Below are positions 11,485 through 36,544 of a stretch of 41,379 nucleotides of DNA, one piece after another. A model generated the notes under the pieces. The model was not told the DNA's origin, did not search any database, and saw only the letters and a program-made list of their open reading frames with translations. Source of the stretch: a virus; the IMG/VR virus record IMGVR_UViG_3300046506_000212, positions 1-41,379 of that record; one strand, written 5' to 3'. The translations under genes and the position numbers were made by a program. How positions within the stretch are numbered: position 1 is the first letter of the stretch; each line of letters begins with the position of its first letter.

Positions 11485-11508
11485 AAGCCCCGCAAGTAGC
11501 GGGGCTTT
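11485..11508. terminator. Bidirectional terminator between convergent genes
   Basis: AAGCCCCGC-AAGTA-GCGGGGCTT with flanking A and T residues, between the rightward 85-aa gene and the leftward LuxR-type gene. It ends both transcripts. Confidence 0.85.
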
Positions 11509-11917
11509 AGGCGACGGCTCGCAGTGGAGGCCCGCCAGCCGGTGAGGTTGAGTTACGCGAGCAGCGTGACGTTTCCGTCATCGTTCTATCACGGCGGTGC
11601 CTACTGGGCCTTGTGCAGTCGTTCTCAATCTCAAACACTGCGGCGATGCACAGTAGCATGCACAGCGCTTGGGGGATGAGAACGCCCAAGGTAAAGGCGC
11701 GGGTGATCATGTGGACTTTGTTGCGTGCGCCTAGCTTGGCCATGATGGCCGATTCAACTTGGCGCATGCTTACCGGGTCAATGTCCAAGTGCTGCGCGAT
11801 GATGGGGGTGGGCACGCCGTCTGCCAGCCTGACCAGCACGTTCAATTCTTGATTGGATAGGTGCTGACCCGGCAGGCCTATTACTTCGTCGCCCACGATA
11901 GTGGCTTGTGCGGTCAT
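11507..11917 (-). CDS. LuxR-type helix-turn-helix protein with membrane-like segment
   Basis: A 136-residue protein with a GerE/LuxR-type DNA-binding domain: LSNQELNVLVRLADGVPTPI, IIAQHLDIDPVSMRQVESAI and MAKLGARNKVHMITRAFTLG (residues 20-79). It continues into a hydrophobic stretch (VLIPQALCMLLCIAAVF) that could be a membrane anchor, then an Arg/Ser-rich tail. There is no receiver or autoinducer domain. It is the third leftward gene behind the CI-like repressor, so it may be expressed in the lysogen. A lysogenic conversion or immunity function is possible. Confidence 0.7.
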   Translation of the reverse strand: MTAQATIVGDEVIGLPGQHLSNQELNVLVRLADGVPTPIIAQHLDIDPVSMRQVESAIMAKLGARNKVHMITRAFTLGVLIPQALCMLLCIAAVFEIENDCTRPSRHRRDRTMTETSRCSRNSTSPAGGPPLRAVA

Positions 11918-11944: not shown

Positions 11945-12196
11945 TTAGGCGGCGTGAACGGCGGCCTGAAGGGCTATTAGCTTGTCGCGCAACATGTGTA
12001 TGAGCGCGTGTATGTCCTCGGCGTTTTCGACAGTCACGGCGCCTTCATAGATAGACAGGCTTGCGATTGCGCCAATCCCTGAACACATGGCAATCGAGCT
12101 GCCAATGGCAGCGAATAGATGCTGTTTGCGTTCAAGGGGGAGGGTGTCAGTGTTCTGGTTTTGAGTGAGGGTTTTACTGCTGCTGCCATGCTGCAT
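11945..12196 (-). CDS. Hypothetical protein downstream of the repressor (83 aa)
   Basis: Leftward 83-residue protein with a polar N-terminus and a hydrophobic alanine/isoleucine segment (FAAIGSSIAMCSGIGAIASL) followed by helix DIHALIHMLRDKLIALQAAV. The start at 12196 is chosen because the longer start at 12271 would place the CI-type operator (12227-12250) inside the gene. It sits between the repressor and the LuxR-type gene. Function unknown. Confidence 0.55.
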   Translation of the reverse strand: MQHGSSSKTLTQNQNTDTLPLERKQHLFAAIGSSIAMCSGIGAIASLSIYEGAVTVENAEDIHALIHMLRDKLIALQAAVHAA

Positions 12197-12226: not shown

Positions 12227-12250
12227 GTGTAATGTTACACATAAAGTGGA
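12227..12250. promoter_or_regulatory. CI-type operator upstream of the 83-aa gene
   Basis: TACACATAAAGTGGA (12236-12250) matches the 15-bp operator TACAC-N5-GTGTA with one mismatch. A further GTGTA half-site lies 4 bp to the left (12227-12231), repeating the three-half-site layout seen at 13019-13042. Confidence 0.6.
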
Positions 12251-12288
12251 ATCCACGACAGCGAAAAGCATGGCCTTGTGACATTATT

Positions 12289-12954
12289 TTAACGGTCGGT
12301 CGCGATTCTAACGACTCTTCCGACGACCTGTACCTTGTCCATTTCCTCGCGGGACAGGTGTTGGTCCGGGTACTCGCTTTGATTTTGAGCCAGCAAGGTA
12401 AAGCTGCCGTCTGTTTCCTGGCGAATGCGGCGAATCCAGATTTTATCGGCTACGACAATGCCGAACAGGTCGACGCCTTCCGGTTTAGTCCGGGTGCAGT
12501 CGAGCAGTACCTCGGCCTTTTCCTCGATCAGGGGTGACATGGACGAATCGAGCTGGTGAATAGCTAAAAGCTTGCTGCTATCTAAGCCGCGACGCTCAAG
12601 GTAAGGGATGTGGTAAGCGCTGTTTGCGCATGATTGAGGCACGGCGATGGTGCCCGCATCGGTAGTAATAATGGGGCTGTTCGCGGTTACGTAGTTTGTT
12701 TTAGCGCCGGTTCCGTCTTCATCATTGGTATAGCCGTTTAGCCACGCGGGGGTTTTCCCAAGAACTACGGCAAGGCGCATTAGGTTTTCGGTCTTTGGCG
12801 CTCGTACTTCAAGTTCCCAGTTGTAATAGGCGGACATGGATATTTTGGCGCCACTCATGGCGTTGATACGGGCAACAACTTCATCGGGTGTCAGTTTCGA
12901 TTCGGCGCGGGCCTGCCTGATGCGATGTCCGATGATTTTGTGAAGCTCGTTCAT
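12289..12954 (-). CDS. CI-like prophage repressor (helix-turn-helix + S24-like domain)
   Basis: A 221-residue phage repressor. The N-terminal Xre/lambda-type DNA-binding domain (IIGHRIRQARAESKLTPDEV, then ISMSAYYNWELEVRAPKTEN, about residues 7-72) is followed by a linker and a C-terminal LexA/CI S24-like fold with the serine motif SSMSP (Ser138). Where LexA has V-K-R-L with the catalytic lysine, this protein reads I-R-R-I (residues 174-177), so the lysine is replaced by Arg175. Self-cleavage is therefore doubtful, although an Ala-Gly pair occurs at 100-101. It should bind the TACAC-N5-GTGTA sites and maintain lysogeny. Leftward, divergent from the Cro-like gene. Confidence 0.9.
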   Translation of the reverse strand: MNELHKIIGHRIRQARAESKLTPDEVVARINAMSGAKISMSAYYNWELEVRAPKTENLMRLAVVLGKTPAWLNGYTNDEDGTGAKTNYVTANSPIITTDAGTIAVPQSCANSAYHIPYLERRGLDSSKLLAIHQLDSSMSPLIEEKAEVLLDCTRTKPEGVDLFGIVVADKIWIRRIRQETDGSFTLLAQNQSEYPDQHLSREEMDKVQVVGRVVRIATDR

Positions 12955-13018
12955 TGGTCGGCTCTCTAAAGCGGCTGATATATGCGTATGACAAGGCCTG
13001 AATTTGATAATTCAGTTC

Positions 13019-13042
13019 GTGTAAAAATACACTTAAAGTGTA
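13019..13042. promoter_or_regulatory. CI operator with three half-sites
   Basis: GTGTA (13019), 4 bp, TACAC (13028), 5 bp, GTGTA (13038). The right pair is a perfect TACAC-N5-GTGTA inverted repeat, extended to 17 bp by flanking A and T. Confidence 0.8.
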
Positions 13043-13052
13043 TGGAGCGCAA
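13024..13052 (-). promoter_or_regulatory. Repressor-maintenance promoter (PRM-like)
   Basis: On the minus strand TTGCGC (plus 13047-13052), 17-bp spacer, TATTTT (plus 13024-13029). The operator half-sites at 13028-13042 fill the spacer, so the repressor can regulate itself. Confidence 0.6.
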
Positions 13053-13061
13053 AAAAACAAC

Positions 13062-13090
13062 TTGAGCTGTTCAGGAACCTGACATAGAGT
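13062..13090 (+). promoter_or_regulatory. Early rightward promoter (PR-like)
   Basis: TTGAGC (13062-13067), 17-bp spacer, TAGAGT (13085-13090), directly followed by operator 13091-13105, which would cover the transcription start. Confidence 0.6.
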
Positions 13091-13105
13091 TACACAAATA
13101 GTGTA
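13091..13105. promoter_or_regulatory. CI operator at the early promoter
   Basis: TACACAAATAGTGTA, a perfect copy of TACAC-N5-GTGTA, 17 bp before the Cro-like start codon. Confidence 0.8.
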
Positions 13106-13121
13106 ATTTTTTGGTGTCGCA

Positions 13122-13388
13122 GTGGACCTCAATAGTTGGATTGATCAAGTCAGTGAGGCTAAAACGTCTCTGCGTCAGGGCATGCGCCATGTCGTACCGG
13201 CTGCCGTCCTACTGAATGAAAATCCCCGCACTGTCTATTCGTGGTATCGCCGCGAGCGATCCCCGGCCTTTCCTGCTGCCATGAAGATCGTCACCATTTC
13301 GGGCGGCGCTGTTGACTACAACGGCATTTTCCAGCCATTCCAGCAGGCTGCCGAGCGCGCCAAGGTTTCCAGCAGTGGCGGCCTTTAA
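13122..13388 (+). CDS. Cro-like helix-turn-helix protein (88 aa), GTG start
   Basis: Small DNA-binding protein divergent from the CI-like gene. The region VVPAAVLLNENPRTVYSWYRRERSPAFP has a helix-turn-helix with recognition helix near PRTVYSWYRR, followed by AMKIVTISGGAVDY, a pattern seen in small Cro/YdaS-type phage regulators. GTG 13122 is the first start that keeps the N-terminal helix; the ribosome binding site is weak. Position and size support the Cro role. It overlaps the next gene by 14 bp. Confidence 0.72.
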   Translation: MDLNSWIDQVSEAKTSLRQGMRHVVPAAVLLNENPRTVYSWYRRERSPAFPAAMKIVTISGGAVDYNGIFQPFQQAAERAKVSSSGGL

Positions 13389-13962
13389 GCTCGACGCCGG
13401 TTTTTCCTCGCGGCCTGAAGTCAAAAAGGTTGAGCAGCGCTTCGCCCTTGCGGGCATGGCTCGTATGGTCAAGATCCTTGAATTGCTGACCGGCAGCCCA
13501 GACCCCGCCAGCGGCGTTATTGAAATGCCTGTCAGTGATTGGGAGGAAGTCATGCAGCAAGGCTCTGTCCTGCTTATGCCGTTCCTGAGCTACTTGCAAC
13601 AAGCCGATTGGCTGACTGTAGATCCCGACGTTGAAGTTGGCGCGCCGTTACGAGTAACGGTCAGCAATCCCCAGCAATATCTCGTTTCGGACGCGGCATT
13701 GCCGACGTATCCCCAGCTTTTCAGCCAGCCCGCCGAGTGGCGCGACTGGTTCGTCACTGAGCTGACGTCTCCCGGCTACGCCGTCGATACGCCGGAGACG
13801 CAGCAGCTTTTCCGGCGTTGGTGCGCAACCAACGTCACGTTGACCGAAATACAGGCCGCCATAGAGCTGGCTATTACTGCGAGGCAGGCGCCGACCCCGG
13901 CTGCACTGCACGAATACATTAAGGCTGTGCGCAAACTCAAGTTAGAGGACGCCCGACGCTGA
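13375..13962 (+). CDS. Putative phage replication-associated protein (195 aa)
   Basis: GTG 13375 with AAGG 9 nt upstream gives a protein starting VAAFKLDAGFSSRPEVKKVE. This opening, with ARMVKILELLTG and SDWEEVMQQ after it, resembles the winged-helix N-terminal domain of Lin1244/Lin1753-like phage replication proteins. The C-terminal region (EWRDWFVTEL, FRRWCATNVTLTEIQAAIEL) is helical, as in DnaT-like primosomal proteins. It is the first gene after Cro in the early rightward operon. The family call is tentative; replication in the lytic cycle is the inferred role. Confidence 0.55.
   Translation: MAAFKLDAGFSSRPEVKKVEQRFALAGMARMVKILELLTGSPDPASGVIEMPVSDWEEVMQQGSVLLMPFLSYLQQADWLTVDPDVEVGAPLRVTVSNPQQYLVSDAALPTYPQLFSQPAEWRDWFVTELTSPGYAVDTPETQQLFRRWCATNVTLTEIQAAIELAITARQAPTPAALHEYIKAVRKLKLEDARR
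13646..13659. repeat. Dispersed palindrome CGTTAC-GA-GTAACG
   Basis: Perfect arms, spacer GA, inside the replication-associated gene. Confidence 0.8.
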
Positions 13963-13990
13963 CGCGTAAGGGTTGAGGGAGCGCTGTTTC

Positions 13991-14419
13991 ATGTTGATTG
14001 CACTTTCCGGTGGAACTGCGGCCGAGCGTAAAGAGCTGGCCGAATCCTTGCGAGCTGATAGTCGTGGTGGTTTGGTCCTGCATGAGCAGGAAAGGCCGGG
14101 CATGCCATCGGCTACAAATCGTTGTTCTCCCGCCACTGTTTCCACCCTTCGGGCTGGCCTGCTGGCTGAAATTCTGTCGGGTCGCTCGCCTCGAAACGCG
14201 CTGATTCTGGTGCATTGCTTGGCTGAGCAAGAGGCTGATCTTGTGCGCGCCCAGGGCGGCAGCGTGTGGCACCTGTATGGCGAGCCGTCGCGTCATGTGG
14301 TGATCCGAAAGGGCGACCCGATTGTCTCGCGCCTGCGCGGCGTGCCTGGGCACGTTGTTGAGCCGCTGGAGGCCTATTCGCAGATGGTTTTGGCCAAGCG
14401 GGCCGGTCGTCATGTCTAG
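13991..14419 (+). CDS. Degenerate nucleotide-kinase-like protein (142 aa)
   Basis: The N-terminus MLIALSGGTAAERKELAESL has the position and hydrophobic strand of a P-loop (GxxxxGK[ST]) but lacks the second glycine and the canonical lysine/serine order. The C-terminal part (LVRAQGGSVWHLYGEPSRHV) resembles the end of phage deoxynucleoside monophosphate kinases. I infer a relative of those kinases with a degraded nucleotide site; activity is doubtful. The start has GAGGGAG upstream. Confidence 0.5.
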   Translation: MLIALSGGTAAERKELAESLRADSRGGLVLHEQERPGMPSATNRCSPATVSTLRAGLLAEILSGRSPRNALILVHCLAEQEADLVRAQGGSVWHLYGEPSRHVVIRKGDPIVSRLRGVPGHVVEPLEAYSQMVLAKRAGRHV

Positions 14420-14624
14420 TTCAGTCTTTACGATCCTGCCCCAGTACGCCTATGGCGACCCGGCGCGCATCGTTGAACAGCAGCAGTTGCGCGACCTGGG
14501 CTGTCGCGCCTGCGTCCGCTCTGAGCTGGCATTCGGCATCGCTATATGTGGGAAGTCGCTCAAGTTCCCAGCCTGCCGTCGCGTACAGAACGGCTATCAG
14601 TTGCGGCCCGAGGCCGAGGGGTAG
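14412..14624 (+). CDS. Small cysteine-containing phage protein (70 aa)
   Basis: A 70-residue protein overlapping the preceding gene by 8 bp. Four cysteines in the pattern C-x2-C, then C (AICGKS) and C (PACRRV), between residues 31 and 56, could bind zinc. Such proteins sit next to antiterminator genes in many Pseudomonas phages, but no function is known to me. Confidence 0.6.
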   Translation: MSSSVFTILPQYAYGDPARIVEQQQLRDLGCRACVRSELAFGIAICGKSLKFPACRRVQNGYQLRPEAEG

Positions 14625-14630
14625 CGCTCA

Positions 14631-15059
14631 ATGGCTCGACGCAAGAGCGACAACCAGTTGGATCGGGCGATAGAGCTGTGGGCTATCTGGTGCTATCGCG
14701 GACAGAGCGCGGCGGCCGGTAAGTCCATGCTTGCCCGGCTGATCGACAACAAGGGCGAGCTGATGTTTAGCGGCTCTGGCGGGCGCTCTTTTGGCTGTGG
14801 CGATGACCTTGAAAGCAGCATTGAGTCGTGTGTTAACCGCATGTTTCAAGAAAGCCCAATAAAGGCTGACGTGCTGCGTCTGGAGTACGGCGTGGGTGAC
14901 TGGGAGGTAGTCCAGCGCCGGAAAATCGGGGGCTATGACTTCGAGCATGCCAAGCAACTGGATAAGGCGCTGTTCCTGGGTGTCAGCTACGCGACTTATC
15001 GGCGCCACCTTGCGGCTGCACGCCTGGCTATTGAGGCGATGTTGGGGGGTGCCACATGA
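14631..15059 (+). CDS. Q-like late antiterminator
   Basis: A 142-residue protein of the phage Q/antitermination type. The C-terminal half (IKADVLRLEYGVGD, then FLGVSYATYRRHLAAARLAI) has the sigma-region-4-like helix-turn-helix seen at the end of these small antiterminators. The N-terminal ELWAIWCYRG segment also fits. Its place at the end of the early operon, upstream of a late promoter with a terminator about 80 nt after it (17878-17997), supports a role in switching on lysis and structural genes. An ArpU-type late activator is the alternative. Confidence 0.65.
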   Translation: MARRKSDNQLDRAIELWAIWCYRGQSAAAGKSMLARLIDNKGELMFSGSGGRSFGCGDDLESSIESCVNRMFQESPIKADVLRLEYGVGDWEVVQRRKIGGYDFEHAKQLDKALFLGVSYATYRRHLAAARLAIEAMLGGAT

Positions 15060-15217
15060 GCGTGCCTTTATCGGATGCGCAGCCGTTGCGCTCGGCTTGG
15101 CTGGTCATCGTACCCGGCTGGCCTCCGTTCCCAATGACGTGCAGCCCTTGTACGCGGGAGCAGGCCTTAGACGTGGCTCGGGGCATCTGGCCTGCGGCTG
15201 AGATAGGCATTTATTGA
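15056..15217 (+). CDS. Small proline/tryptophan-rich protein (53 aa)
   Basis: ATGA overlap with the antiterminator stop; reads MSVPLSDAQPLRSAWLVIVP, then GWPPFPMTCSPCTREQALDV and ends with WPAAEIGIY. The CSPC pair and the coupled start support a real gene. Function unknown. Confidence 0.55.
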   Translation: MSVPLSDAQPLRSAWLVIVPGWPPFPMTCSPCTREQALDVARGIWPAAEIGIY

Positions 15218-15222
15218 TTCAG

Positions 15223-15236
15223 CGTTACGCGTAACG
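15223..15236. repeat. Dispersed palindrome CGTTAC-GC-GTAACG
   Basis: Perfect 14-bp palindrome in the intergenic space before ninX. Confidence 0.85.
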
Positions 15237-15307
15237 GATTCATCTTTTCAACATGGGCAAGTGTGGCCCACGGGTTCGCTTTGCCTGAAATAAGCCAAGG
15301 GGGCTAT

Positions 15308-15742
15308 ATGTCTGAAGAAGCGGCCGCAAAGGCCTGGGCAAGAGTAGACACGCTGGAGCTGACCGGCCCCGCGCTTGCGTGGGCCGTGGCGACGGTCAAG
15401 ATGCTGAAAGGCGAGCTGACGCAACCCCGCGTGGTGCGGGGCGGGACATACGGCGAGCCGGATTCGCTGTGGTTCATCGCGTACGGCCCGGCAGGCGTCG
15501 ACTGCAATGTATGGGCGCCACACAAGGACTGGTCCCAGGGCGGTCCGCTGCTGGAAGGAATCGTTATAGCGGGTGGTCGTTGGTCGCTCACTGATAGCGT
15601 CTTTATGGTTCTCGCTCGCGGGCACCACGGGGAGCTTATTAAGGCCGAGGGTCTTGCGCTGTTAGAGAGCGTTTGCCGGGCTTACGTGGCGGTTTGGTGC
15701 GGTCTGTCGGTTAACGTCCCGGCCGAGCTGGTGACGCCATGA
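15308..15742 (+). CDS. ninX: NinX-like protein (DUF2591)
   Basis: A 144-residue protein with the DUF2591 hallmarks: ELTGPALAWAVATVKM at the start, HKDWSQGGPLLE in the middle (the family reads tdW..GGpLIE), and SVCRAYVAVWCGLSVNVPAE at the end. Role unknown; ninX genes lie in the nin region of lambdoid phages close to Q, as here. ATG 15308 has AAGGGGG upstream. Confidence 0.8.
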   Translation: MSEEAAAKAWARVDTLELTGPALAWAVATVKMLKGELTQPRVVRGGTYGEPDSLWFIAYGPAGVDCNVWAPHKDWSQGGPLLEGIVIAGGRWSLTDSVFMVLARGHHGELIKAEGLALLESVCRAYVAVWCGLSVNVPAELVTP

Positions 15743-15990
15743 GCCTGCCCGTCCGCCGCTATGTCCTGCACCCTGGGCCGGTGACAAGTCGGACAGATGG
15801 GCAGCGGCATTACGTCGGCGCCGGGCCGCTCGCAAGCTGCTACCGCGTCAGCATGCGTGAATGCGTGGTGTATCCCAGCGGCACAGATGACGAAGCGGTT
15901 ATTCGGCGGCGGATCTGGCGCGACCCTCCTGGGGCTATCCATCTATACCCCCGATATGACGGCAATTACGAGCTGCCACCTTCTACCTAA
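15739..15990 (+). CDS. Hypothetical protein (83 aa)
   Basis: Overlaps ninX by 4 bp (ATGA). Basic, beta-rich (RYVLHPGPVTSRTDGQRHYV, then CYRVSMRECVVYPSGTDDEA) and possibly a small nucleic-acid-associated protein. Not recognised. It ends 48 bp before the integrase. Confidence 0.55.
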   Translation: MSLPVRRYVLHPGPVTSRTDGQRHYVGAGPLASCYRVSMRECVVYPSGTDDEAVIRRRIWRDPPGAIHLYPRYDGNYELPPST

Positions 15991-16038
15991 TCCGTCTCGC
16001 GCTCGCGGGGCGTTCCTGCGGGCGCTTGTGAGTGCCTT

Positions 16039-17310
16039 ATGTCAACAATTCTTCAAGTCGCGGTCTCTGATGCCTCTATAAAGAAGCATGCGGCCGACCT
16101 GGGCGTCATCGAGCTGAAAGACCCGCGTTACCCGTTACGCTTCCGCTACCGCAAAGACCGCACCCGAGGCAGTTGGCATGTGGTCCGCTACGAAGGTCGG
16201 GCGGTCTGGCGCAAGGCGGGTAACTGGCCGGACGTGTCGGCCCGCTCGATGCTCGACAGCCTGCCCGATGTACTTAAGCGCCTTATGGTTGACCCGTCCT
16301 GCACGGCAACCGTGGACGGCTGGGAAACCGTGGGCGAGCTGCTGGACTGGTTTTCGTCTCGCGTTGAGGCCGACCGGGGGCTAACCGAGGGGCGCCGGTC
16401 AACCGTTCTATCTGCTATCCGCTGCCATTTGAAACCCTGCCTCGGTGTGCTGCGGCTCGATGCCCTGAATAAGGCCAGGATCGACGACCGGTTGATTCAG
16501 CCGATGCGGGCAGAGTCCAGCTTGTCACACGTCAAATCGGTTTTCGGCGTCCTGCAGAACGCTTTCCGTCGTGCGCTGAGTCTGGCCAAGCTGTCGTCAA
16601 ACCCCATCGACCGCGTGACATTCGGCAACTTCAGTAAAGAGAAGATCAAGCCCAAGGGGGCCAGTCTGCGCCATGTGCATGCCGTCGACCTGTTGGCCAG
16701 TTGGGCAGACCTGTACGAAGAAAAGCCGGTAGACGTGACGTTTGCCGCGCTGATGCTGACCCATGGGACGCGCATCACTGAAACCCGCCTGACCAAGTGG
16801 AAAGACCTTTCTCTTATAGAGGGAGGGGAGTGGTTCATACCGGCCACACATACCAAGTCACGCCGGGACCATCGCTTGCCGCTGACCGCCCAAGCCATCG
16901 CTCTCTTAATCCGTTACCGCGAATGGCAGCAGGCAAGGGGGTATGCCGGTGCCTACGTCTTCCCATCGACCAAGCGCCCAGGCAAGCCGGTGTCACGCGG
17001 GCAGTCTTTCGACATGTTCCAGTCCCTGGGCGCCAGTGAATGGACCAGTCACGACCTACGCAAGCTCGCCCGGACGACCTGGGGGGATTTGAACGTGGAT
17101 AGCCTTGTGGGCCGCCTGCTGTTGAACCACGCCCTAACCGATCTTGAGGCGACTTACTTCCAATCGACCGGCGAGGCCCTGAAGCGCGCCGCCCTGGAAA
17201 AGTGGCATGCATGGCTCGACGCCCAGGGCTTCGACGCACTCCACAGCAAGACAGGAGCAAGACGGACCGAACGACCCATATCGCTAGACCCCGCTGGCTG
17301 GCTGGTCTGA
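16039..17310 (+). CDS. int: Tyrosine recombinase (phage integrase)
   Basis: A 423-residue tyrosine recombinase. An arm-binding-type N-terminal region (FRYRKDRTRGSWHVVRYEGR) is followed by a core-binding SAM-like domain (about residues 95-185) and the catalytic domain with the full active set: Arg245 in TRITE, Lys273, His338 and Arg341 in HDLR, His364 in LNHAL and nucleophile Tyr373. It is rightward, in line with the early genes, with no attP-like repeats or tRNA fragment beside it. Because the element also has repA and par genes, it may act in integration, in dimer resolution of the plasmid, or be a relic of an integrative ancestor. Confidence 0.92.
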   Translation: MSTILQVAVSDASIKKHAADLGVIELKDPRYPLRFRYRKDRTRGSWHVVRYEGRAVWRKAGNWPDVSARSMLDSLPDVLKRLMVDPSCTATVDGWETVGELLDWFSSRVEADRGLTEGRRSTVLSAIRCHLKPCLGVLRLDALNKARIDDRLIQPMRAESSLSHVKSVFGVLQNAFRRALSLAKLSSNPIDRVTFGNFSKEKIKPKGASLRHVHAVDLLASWADLYEEKPVDVTFAALMLTHGTRITETRLTKWKDLSLIEGGEWFIPATHTKSRRDHRLPLTAQAIALLIRYREWQQARGYAGAYVFPSTKRPGKPVSRGQSFDMFQSLGASEWTSHDLRKLARTTWGDLNVDSLVGRLLLNHALTDLEATYFQSTGEALKRAALEKWHAWLDAQGFDALHSKTGARRTERPISLDPAGWLV

Positions 17311-17350
17311 GCGCCATTTACCCAATCCATTCTATAAGAGGATCGTTTCA

Positions 17351-17818
17351 ATGACCGATGTGCCTGTTTTGCCGTATGTGGTGGGTGGCTTGGACGTAGC
17401 GACGGATCGAATTGAGGGGCCTTTGCTGCACTGGAGCGCGGCCACTGATGAGCTTGTGACAGGTCACAGCGATGCGGAAAGCGATCTAAGTCCCGAGGCG
17501 CAGCGCAAGCGCGAACAGCGCGACCGCGAAAAAGCGGCCGGGGTTGAGGTGTTTGAGCTGAAATTCAGCGCCTTCGAACGGGCCGAACTGGACGAAGGCC
17601 GCGTAGGCCGTGGCTCTCAGGGTGAGCCGTATACAGCAACCGAGTACGTCAAAACGCTGATCCGCAACGACGTGAAGCGGTTGCGCATTGAGCAAGGGAA
17701 ACTCGCCGGGCGGATCTGCAAGAATTGCTCGAAGGCTCTACCACGGGGCTGTGGCGGCACATGGGGGAGCGAGCAGCGGTGTTTGTTGCGGGCTTCAGAG
17801 GTGGCGTTATCGCTTTGA
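17351..17818 (+). CDS. Hypothetical protein with RHH-like segment and Cys cluster (155 aa)
   Basis: Residues about 50-115 (SPEAQRKREQRDREKAAGVE, then FELKFSAFERAELDEGRVGR and ATEYVKTLIRNDVKRL) resemble small ribbon-helix-helix-type proteins with a basic helix in front. The C-terminus has C-x2-C and two more cysteines (ICKNCSKALPRGC, EQRC), a possible zinc ribbon. It contains one copy of the TGTGACAGGTCACA palindrome. It sits between int and the late promoter, where a late regulator would fit; this is inference. Confidence 0.6.
   Translation: MTDVPVLPYVVGGLDVATDRIEGPLLHWSAATDELVTGHSDAESDLSPEAQRKREQRDREKAAGVEVFELKFSAFERAELDEGRVGRGSQGEPYTATEYVKTLIRNDVKRLRIEQGKLAGRICKNCSKALPRGCGGTWGSEQRCLLRASEVALSL
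17455..17468. repeat. Palindrome TGTGACAGGTCACA (copy 2)
   Basis: Inside the 155-aa gene, encoding part of LVTGHS. The surrounding 19 bases (17453-17471) are identical to copy 3 at 18720-18738. Confidence 0.75.
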
Positions 17819-17846
17819 GGCTACCCATACTTGCCTCGCGTGCCCG

Positions 17847-17906
17847 TACACCGTTTGTGTAGTAATTACACTTTTTGTTGACAGGCCTGAGCGTTTCCCA
17901 TATCTT
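17847..17906 (+). promoter_or_regulatory. Late promoter with CI-type operators
   Basis: TTGACA (17878-17883), 17-bp spacer, TATCTT (17901-17906) is the best sigma-70 promoter seen in the window. TACACCGTTTGTGTA (17847-17861) is a perfect TACAC-N5-GTGTA operator. A second, two-mismatch site (TACACTTTTTGTTGA, 17867-17881) overlaps the -35 element. The lytic late operon is thus under the same operator as the immunity region. Confidence 0.8.
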
Positions 17907-17963
17907 TCGCCTCATTGTGGTGTTGGTGCGCCACGGTGGATGCACAGCCAAGAAATTCCCTTT

Positions 17964-17997
17964 ACCCCCGGACCTATTAGGCCGGGGGTTTTTTTAT
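17964..17997 (+). terminator. Terminator just downstream of the late promoter (tR'-like)
   Basis: ACCCCCGG (17964-17971), loop, CCGGGGGT (17982-17989), then a run of T. It lies about 75-80 nt after the expected start of late transcription and before the lysis genes, as lambda tR' follows pR'. Read-through would need the Q-like protein. Confidence 0.85.
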
Positions 17998-18014
17998 GCC
18001 CGGAGAAAACCCCA

Positions 18015-18221
18015 ATGAGTACCGTCACTAGCGACATGGTAGAGCGCGTTGTTGCTATGCCGCCCGCCGTGGCTGCGGCGGCTACTTTCTGCGGTTGGCC
18101 CCTTTCTGATGTGTCCTCGGCCGTCTTTATCGTTTATGGGCTGCTGATGATTGCGTGGCATGTCAAAACGAAATGGCTGGCTAAGTGGCTGGCTAAGTCG
18201 GGGGTTCCTGATGAGTCTTAA
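18015..18221 (+). CDS. Holin
   Basis: A 68-residue membrane protein with two hydrophobic segments (MPPAVAAAATFCGWPLS and SAVFIVYGLLMIAW) and a basic Lys/Trp tail (HVKTKWLAKWLAK). This is the class II (S21-like) holin pattern. It is the first gene of the lysis cassette and overlaps the endolysin start by 11 bp. With a SAR endolysin it probably forms pinholes that depolarise the membrane. Confidence 0.85.
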   Translation: MSTVTSDMVERVVAMPPAVAAAATFCGWPLSDVSSAVFIVYGLLMIAWHVKTKWLAKWLAKSGVPDES

Positions 18222-18726
18222 GGCCCGGCTGATACCCGCCGTTATCGCGGCCGTTCTGGCTTCGGGCGGCACGGCGTTGCAGGTCATGGAGGCCGGTGTG
18301 CCGGTTGTTGAGGGTGAGCGCTACGTCGCCTATCTCGACTCCGGTGGCTTGCCGACCATCTGCGCCGGTATTACCCGAGGCGTAAAGCTGGGTGATGTTG
18401 AGACGCCCGAAGGCTGCAAGCGCCGTAATGCCGAGGCGATTCGCACAGGCTTGCAGGACGTCGAGACCTGTTCCGGCGACCTGTCCACGGTCCCGCGTTC
18501 TGTCCTCGGCGGCATGGGGATGTTCGCTTACAACGTCGGCAGACCGAAGTATTGCGGGTCAACCGCTGCCACTTACGTCCGTGCTGGCAAGTACCTGGAG
18601 GCCTGCCGACAACTGCCGCGATGGCGGTATGTCGGGGGCAAGGACTGCGCCATAGCGGCCAACAACTGCCGAGGCATCATCGAGCGCCGGGCTATCGAGG
18701 AAGCGATATGCGAGTACGACTTGTGA
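18211..18726 (+). CDS. SAR endolysin (R21-type lysozyme, GH24)
   Basis: A 171-residue lysozyme. The N-terminus (LIPAVIAAVLASGGTALQVM) is a weakly hydrophobic, Ala/Gly-rich signal-arrest-release segment. The T4-lysozyme catalytic triad is in place as E34-x8-D43-x5-T49 (EGERYVAYLDSGGLPT), followed by ICAGITRGVKLG. Start ATG 18211 is preferred over upstream options, which would lengthen the N-terminus beyond the SAR segment. It hydrolyses the murein glycan strands after release from the membrane. The stop lies in the palindrome 18722-18735. Confidence 0.92.
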   Translation: MSLKARLIPAVIAAVLASGGTALQVMEAGVPVVEGERYVAYLDSGGLPTICAGITRGVKLGDVETPEGCKRRNAEAIRTGLQDVETCSGDLSTVPRSVLGGMGMFAYNVGRPKYCGSTAATYVRAGKYLEACRQLPRWRYVGGKDCAIAANNCRGIIERRAIEEAICEYDL

Positions 18727-35362: not shown

Positions 35363-36544
35363 ATGAGTGGCAGCGCCTTTTTTCACGGGATCACGACCAC
35401 TGCCGTAACCGGTGGTGCGCGGACTATCTCGGTCCCGTCGTCGTCCGTTATCGGGCTTGTGGCGGTCCTGCCCGAGGGCTATGCAGCCCTGGCCAACGGC
35501 GTGACGCCGGGTAAGCCGGTGCTGATTACCAGCGAGCGCGAAGCCATCGCGGTCGGCGGTGAAAGCTCGCCTTTCACGAAAGCCTGTCAGGCGATCTACA
35601 CCCGCGCCAAGGCTGTGATTGTGGCCGTGCCCCTGGCCCCGGTTGTCGATGCTGCGGCACTGACTTCGGCCGTCATCGGCGGCGTGAAGGTCGACGGCAC
35701 CCGTACCGGGCTGCAAGCCCTGATCGACGGTAAAAGCTTGTTCAACGCACAGCCGCGGCTGTTGATTGCGCCGGGTCATTCCGCAACGCTGGCCGTCGCC
35801 ACGGCGATGGAAGCGGTGGCCGAAAAGCTGTCTGCAATCGCGATCATCGACGGCCCCAACACGACCGACGAGGCGGCCATGGCCTACGCGACCAGCTTCG
35901 GCGGCAAGCGTCTGTACATGGTCGACCCCGGCGTTATGTCCTGGGACACCACGGCAAACGCAGACGTCGGTTCTCCGGCCTCGGCCTGGGTGGCTGGCCT
36001 GTTCGCCTGGACTGACACCACTTACGGTTTTTGGGCGTCCCCGTCGAACAAGACGTTCCTCGGCGTGACCGGCACGAAGCGGCCTATCGAGTTCCTGGAC
36101 GGCGACGCCACTTGCCGGGCAAACCTGCTGAACAATGCGTTTATCGCGACGATCATTCGCGACGAGGGTTTCCGCCTGTGGGGCAACCGCACGCTGTCCA
36201 GTGACCCGAAGTGGACCATGGTAACTCGCGTGCGCACCTTCGATATGGTCATGGCCGCCCTGTTGTACGGCACGAAATGGGCGGTCGATGAGCCAATCAC
36301 GAAGGGCTACGTCAAGGCGATGCTCGAAAGCCTGCACGGCTTCATGCGCGACCTGAAGGCCAAGGGCGCTGTTATCAACTTCGACGTGTTCATTGATACC
36401 GAACGCAACACGGCGACCGAACTGGAGCAGGGCCGTATTTTCTTCGGCGTTGAGTTTACCGACTCCCCGCCCGCTGAAAACCCGACCTTCCTTGTTGACG
36501 TTAACAACAAGTGGATTACCGAAGTTCTCGACACTCGTTCGTAA
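35363..36544 (+). CDS. FI: Contractile tail sheath protein (gpFI)
   Basis: A 393-residue P2 FI-type sheath protein: SVIGLVAVLPEGYAALANGV, FTKACQAIYTRAKAVIVAVP, RLLIAPGHSATLAVATAMEA, VAEKLSAIAIIDGPNTTDEA and FRLWGNRTLSSDPKWTMVTR are conserved. Its presence proves a contractile (myovirus) tail. Confidence 0.95.
   Translation: MSGSAFFHGITTTAVTGGARTISVPSSSVIGLVAVLPEGYAALANGVTPGKPVLITSEREAIAVGGESSPFTKACQAIYTRAKAVIVAVPLAPVVDAAALTSAVIGGVKVDGTRTGLQALIDGKSLFNAQPRLLIAPGHSATLAVATAMEAVAEKLSAIAIIDGPNTTDEAAMAYATSFGGKRLYMVDPGVMSWDTTANADVGSPASAWVAGLFAWTDTTYGFWASPSNKTFLGVTGTKRPIEFLDGDATCRANLLNNAFIATIIRDEGFRLWGNRTLSSDPKWTMVTRVRTFDMVMAALLYGTKWAVDEPITKGYVKAMLESLHGFMRDLKAKGAVINFDVFIDTERNTATELEQGRIFFGVEFTDSPPAENPTFLVDVNNKWITEVLDTRS

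Follow-up and report, generated by a model that had tools for sequence, protein, structure and literature searches.

The window analysed here is the whole 41,379-nucleotide stretch of the IMG/VR virus record IMGVR_UViG_3300046506_000212 (positions 1 to 41,379), and the subject is a family of palindromes, TACAC-N5-GTGTA, which are predicted operators of the prophage repressor CI and lie both in the cI-cro region and at the promoter of the late (lysis) genes. The early region has the arrangement of a CI-type regulon, in which a helix-turn-helix (HTH) repressor gene is divergent from cro with the palindromic operators 13028 and 13091 between them. The start-to-start distance between these two operators is 63 bp, and identical spacing is found in most relatives. 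The six operators and their early genes are as follows, where ranks refer to the weight matrix described below and the operators are unstranded.

1367 to 1381: operator overlapping the putative rep promoter (TGGACT 1378-1383, N17, TATTCT 1401-1406); matrix rank 4, kept in relatives L031-L037
1592 to 2602, plus strand: plasmid replication-like (rep-like) gene, phrog_20951 (function not annotated), near parA, with a presumed role in replication
12236 to 12250: operator 3' of cI and 5' of the leftward gene or genes at 11945-12193 and 11507-11917; matrix rank 3, position kept in relatives
12289 to 12954, minus strand: cI, encoding a 221-amino-acid prophage repressor with an N-terminal HTH domain (HTH_3) and a CI/LexA-like C-terminal part (phrog_4, E 1e-20)
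13028 to 13042: operator in the cI promoter region, TACACTTAAAGTGTA; matrix rank 1, kept in relatives
13091 to 13105: operator at the cro promoter, TACACAAATAGTGTA; matrix rank 2
13122 to 13388, plus strand: cro-like gene divergent from cI, assigned by position and a weak family match (phrog_409, E 4e-4)
17847 to 17861: late operator O1, TACACCGTTTGTGTA, 5' of the late -35 element; matrix rank 5
17867 to 17881: late operator O2, TACACTTTTTGTTGA, overlapping the -35 hexamer; matrix rank 6

A motif scan of the window gave perfect matches at 13028-13042, 13091-13105 and 17847-17861, and near copies at 12236-12250 (one mismatch) and 17867-17881 (two mismatches, over the late -35 element), confirming all five copies listed in a first-pass annotation made from the letters alone. 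That annotation had found no other good copies, which was wrong, as an additional copy with one mismatch, TACACAAAAAGTGGA, occupies 1367-1381 and overlaps the putative promoter of the rep-like gene. The three exact copies compare with none for a reversed control pattern. The number of matches with up to two mismatches was ordinary (9 observed, 7.3 expected), so the loose motif alone proves little, and for lack of enrichment this count was dropped in favour of a weight matrix and conservation. The matrix was trained on 24 operators taken from eight relatives, in their cI-cro and downstream-of-cI regions; neither late promoters nor any operators of the window or of its nearest relative entered the training. 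Its six best sites in the window were 13028, 13091, 12236, 1367, 17847 and 17867, with scores from 27.3 to 12.6 bits, and after this sixth site the score fell to 6.5 bits for the seventh. None of 60 shuffles yielded a score as high as that of 12236 or 1367 (expected number 0.00). The statistics of this single genome make the late operator pair likely, not certain, and the decision lies with the relatives.

The promoter that O1 and O2 adjoin, and the genes on either side of it, are as follows.

17351 to 17818, plus strand: gene in the Q position, encoding a regulator with four invariant Cys residues (phrog_536), presumed from its position to be the late antiterminator or activator
17878 to 17906, plus strand: late promoter TTGACA-N17-TATCTT, with 10 of 12 consensus matches, the sole such promoter in 17300-18300
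17913 to 17995, plus strand: short leader ahead of the lysis genes, with an intrinsic terminator (17965-17995) at its end
18015 to 18221, plus strand: holin gene, annotated as the first gene of the late operon and followed by endolysin and spanin genes

Relatives were retrieved with the Q-position protein from viral contigs, plasmids, phages and bacterial genomes; no close relatives of the region were found in the phage DNA collection searched, and scanning viral contigs with a CI peptide gave no matches. Their operators were sorted into class A (ACAC-N5-GTGT), class B (ACAG-N5-CTGT) and a third class built on ACCAC (Vibrio phage K303), and the late-promoter class of every phage was set against that of its own cI-cro and downstream-of-cI regions. 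When the phages were grouped at 90 % identity in CI and in the Q-position protein, 32 clusters were obtained, and the late class equalled the cI-region class in 22 of them (16 A/A, 3 B/B and 3 B/near-B), with no cluster swapped as A/B or B/A. Apart from two mixed clusters considered below, the remaining clusters either lacked a late site that the pattern used could clearly identify or had another class, as in K303, where ACCACAAAAYG occurs in the cI-cro region (4934 and 4998, with 4990 in reverse) as well as at the late promoter (10596 and 10625). Scans of whole records found few sites, almost all at the same five places, and the site 3' of cI is kept among relatives. The operators outside the cI-cro region match the class of the cognate repressor, by covariation and by permutation, and the late class following the phage's own cI-cro class across relatives supports the proposal of the first-pass annotation that the late promoter makes a second use of the CI operator.

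The strongest evidence is the exchange of operator class on a constant background. The relatives L009 and L021 (Pseudomonas plasmid pHN2) have Q-position proteins that are 99 % identical and CI proteins that are 33 % identical; the DNA on either side of the late promoter is 90-100 % identical, whereas the late promoter itself, about 150 bp, is just 47-70 % identical. From L009 to L021 the late promoter changes from class A to class B, and the cI-cro operators are likewise class A in one and class B in the other. L013 and L012 repeat this exchange, with Q-position proteins 95 % identical and CI 36 % identical. Such a switch beneath a near-identical Q-like gene and flanks points to a site for the cognate repressor, not to an element of a shared Q protein.

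Several points weigh against control of the late promoter by CI. The number of late sites expected in the window alone is 0.17 for 17847 and 0.18 for 17867 (matrix, shuffles), which, with the unenriched loose motif, lends something to the idea that the late motif is a coincidence or a generic promoter or Q-protein element resembling an operator; this is most improbable, as the late motif is found in 22 lineages and its class changes along with CI on an otherwise near-identical background of Q-like gene and terminator-holin flank. Two of the 32 clusters (L004 and L046) mix classes. The class association was calculated with shared ancestry ignored, both in the Fisher test (P 0.001 for the 16 A/A and 3 B/B clear cases) and in a class-blind palindrome permutation, in which the observed fit was reached in 0 of 20,000 trials. 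In the Delftia pHQS1/PARCL1pr group, L085 and L097, CI-type sites are present near cI and no late operator was recognised, and in L060, L086 and L107 the late operators are degenerate, so late control would not be universal and would have been lost or gained in places. Finally, cro adjoins cI and is inherited with it, so that covariation fits Cro equally well and cannot tell the two proteins apart. Cro could be the chief occupant of the late operators and could, for instance, delay late transcription early in infection, but this is unlikely: the Cro proteins of PY54 and phiKO2 bind one operator only (OR3), whereas the prophage repressors of phiKO2 and N15 bind several (PMC4488713, PMC4997575), and it would be counterproductive for Cro to repress the late promoter during lytic growth, although it might act as a delay. 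CI is preferred over Cro on the strength of that single-operator binding in related plasmid phages.

Direct control of the late promoter by CI, possibly also by Cro, is put forward as strongly supported by the comparison of sequences. The promoter alignment shows that the late -35, spacer and -10 are kept in relatives, where two dyads usually precede the promoter and the downstream one overlaps the -35. In the window, O2 covers the first four bases of TTGACA (17878-17883), and this overlap indicates repression. In the prophage, the cI, cro, leftward and rep promoters would each have one operator filled by a CI dimer. The late promoter would have two, the tandem sites O1 and O2 spaced by about two helical turns; there CI on O2, probably bound cooperatively, would cover part of the -35 and exclude RNA polymerase. 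In lambda and 186, tandem sites and distant operator clusters serve as loop anchors, and the late operators might likewise be architectural, with CI looping to the cI-cro operators 4.7 kb off and late transcription little affected; this is very unlikely, as the sites keep a fixed place at the late promoter, O2 covering part of the -35, and a loop anchor need not be there. That the six sites form one CI regulon, including repression of the late promoter, is given a probability of roughly 0.86; the sites, their conservation and covariation, and the -35 overlap are seen in the sequence, and binding, repression, cooperativity and antitermination are inferred.

Late expression would then need two events, the loss of CI and the supply of the Q-position protein, the leader and terminator before the holin gene suggesting a second factor for read-through. 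The layout is that of lambda pR'-tR', with a constitutive-type sigma-70 promoter, a short leader and a terminator ahead of the lysis genes, and in nearer relatives the promoter, a short leader with the conserved start CATYGTGGTGTT, the terminator and the holin gene follow directly after the Q-position stop codon. The window protein belongs to phrog_536, whereas the Q proteins of N15 and PY54 belong to phrog_304; no fold match was found for it, and its predicted model was poor (predicted local distance difference test score, pLDDT, 67). As it lies outside the known Q family, antitermination by the 17351-17818 protein is proposed from the layout only, and it is probably the read-through factor.

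Three further features of the late region were recorded. The leader start CATYGTGGTGTT is strongly kept across distant relatives and is possibly a pause or protein-loading element. The idea of a put-like conserved hairpin in the 5' leader was dropped: the window leader folds well, but relatives, inspected by eye, retain the 5' sequence and not a clear hairpin. A conserved GGGTTGACAG upstream of late O1 in L009, L012, L022 and others, absent in the window, suggests a second late promoter in many relatives, starting with TTGACA and with its -10 under O1.

The operator before the rep-like gene is kept in seven relatives (L031-L037), including Aeromonas and Vibrio records, and the predicted regulon is thus wider than the first-pass annotation saw. 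The GTGGA found at 1367 in place of GTGTA may reflect overlap of the right half with the putative -35 (TGGACT). A type-B rep operator was looked for in L038 and not found. Between the putative rep promoter and the rep-like gene lies a long leader with a terminator-like hairpin (1407-1590), kept in relatives, for which copy-number control is possible. The window encodes ParA, a terminase, lysis proteins and a putative replication protein, as expected of a phage-plasmid, and the relatives L004, L005, L021 and L022 are circular plasmid records. In the L021 record (NZ_CP085886, pHN2, 81,985 bases) operator matches recur at a constant offset of 41,243 bases, and pHN2 looks like a tandem phage dimer. 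A tyrosine integrase is encoded in the window, in the region considered for a protelomerase, and no search aimed at a protelomerase was made. The multi-copy state and the lock on lysis proposed in the first-pass annotation are inferences, and the ParA gene rather suggests a low copy number.

In the C-terminal part of CI, WIRRI/WIRWI occupies the region of the LexA catalytic Lys, and the alignment, judged by eye, contains no clear Ala-Gly cleavage site, so CI may not be RecA-cleavable. A gene for a GerE/LuxR-type DNA-binding protein (phrog_3282) lies at 11507-11917 on the minus strand, downstream of the 12236 operator; LuxR-type receptors in regulator modules govern induction in VP882-like plasmid phages (PMC10432266). 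VP882 (L030) was not counted in the comparison, as its cI-q region and late region have no shared dyad. At 36380-36395 it has a perfect palindrome, ATGTTCAAAAGAACAT, directly 5' of a TTGACA ahead of the lysis genes, with no further copy in the VP882 genome.

Dispersed repressor operators, and a repressor on a late promoter, are already known. In the Bacillus tectivirus GIL01, LexA-gp7 acts at promoters P1 and P3; like the window phage it has a plasmid-like prophage with a repressor on the early promoter and on two operators (dinBox2 and dinBox3) at the late promoter, which drives capsid and lysis genes and also requires a phage activator (PMC6182141). It differs in being an unrelated tectivirus with a linear-plasmid prophage, in using host LexA with gp7, in having operators downstream of the -35, and in that its activator gp6 is a LexA relative. 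N15 and phiKO2 are plasmid prophages whose CB repressor binds cB-cro and replication-gene (repA) operators, limiting copy number, but no late operator is reported for them (PMC4997575, PMC4488713) and their Q belongs to phrog_304; sequence inspection revealed no obvious CB-like operator upstream of the annotated N15 late promoter. P1 is likewise a plasmid prophage, with C1 repressor at 22 dispersed operators controlling lytic replication and the lytic programme, but its operators are 17 bp long and asymmetric, and its late genes are controlled indirectly via Lpa (PMC8546580). In Cluster A mycobacteriophages the repressor and many genomic sites diverge jointly between immunity groups (PMC6550527, PMC9262239), whereas their stoperators are asymmetric 13-bp sites, mostly outside promoters, that block elongation, in contrast to the palindromes at promoters seen here. 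Lambda shares the late promoter, short leader, terminator and lysis genes, with the Q gene immediately upstream, but here predicted CI operators overlap the late promoter and the Q-position protein is from another family. Lambda CI is not known to bind pR', and a search of the open-access literature, subscription papers not being covered, brought up no account of CI bound directly to a pR'-like promoter.

In the lambda-type view, Q alone governs the late genes. Should CI also shut the late promoter directly, lysis would be under a double lock, suited to a prophage that persists as a replicating plasmid. The operator classes offer a ready genetic test of a joint change of specificity in a repressor and its scattered operators, pairs of the L009/L021 type, with the same Q-like gene and swapped promoter modules, are natural experiments, and the motif provides a sequence rule for locating all CI-controlled promoters in this phage group, the replication promoter included. 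It seems somewhat more likely than not that in widespread phage-plasmids of Proteobacteria one repressor acts as a master lock on the establishment, replication and late promoters, that the late promoter is an exchangeable cassette matched to the repressor, and that immunity specificity is spread over unlinked sites, with recombination selected to keep the match.
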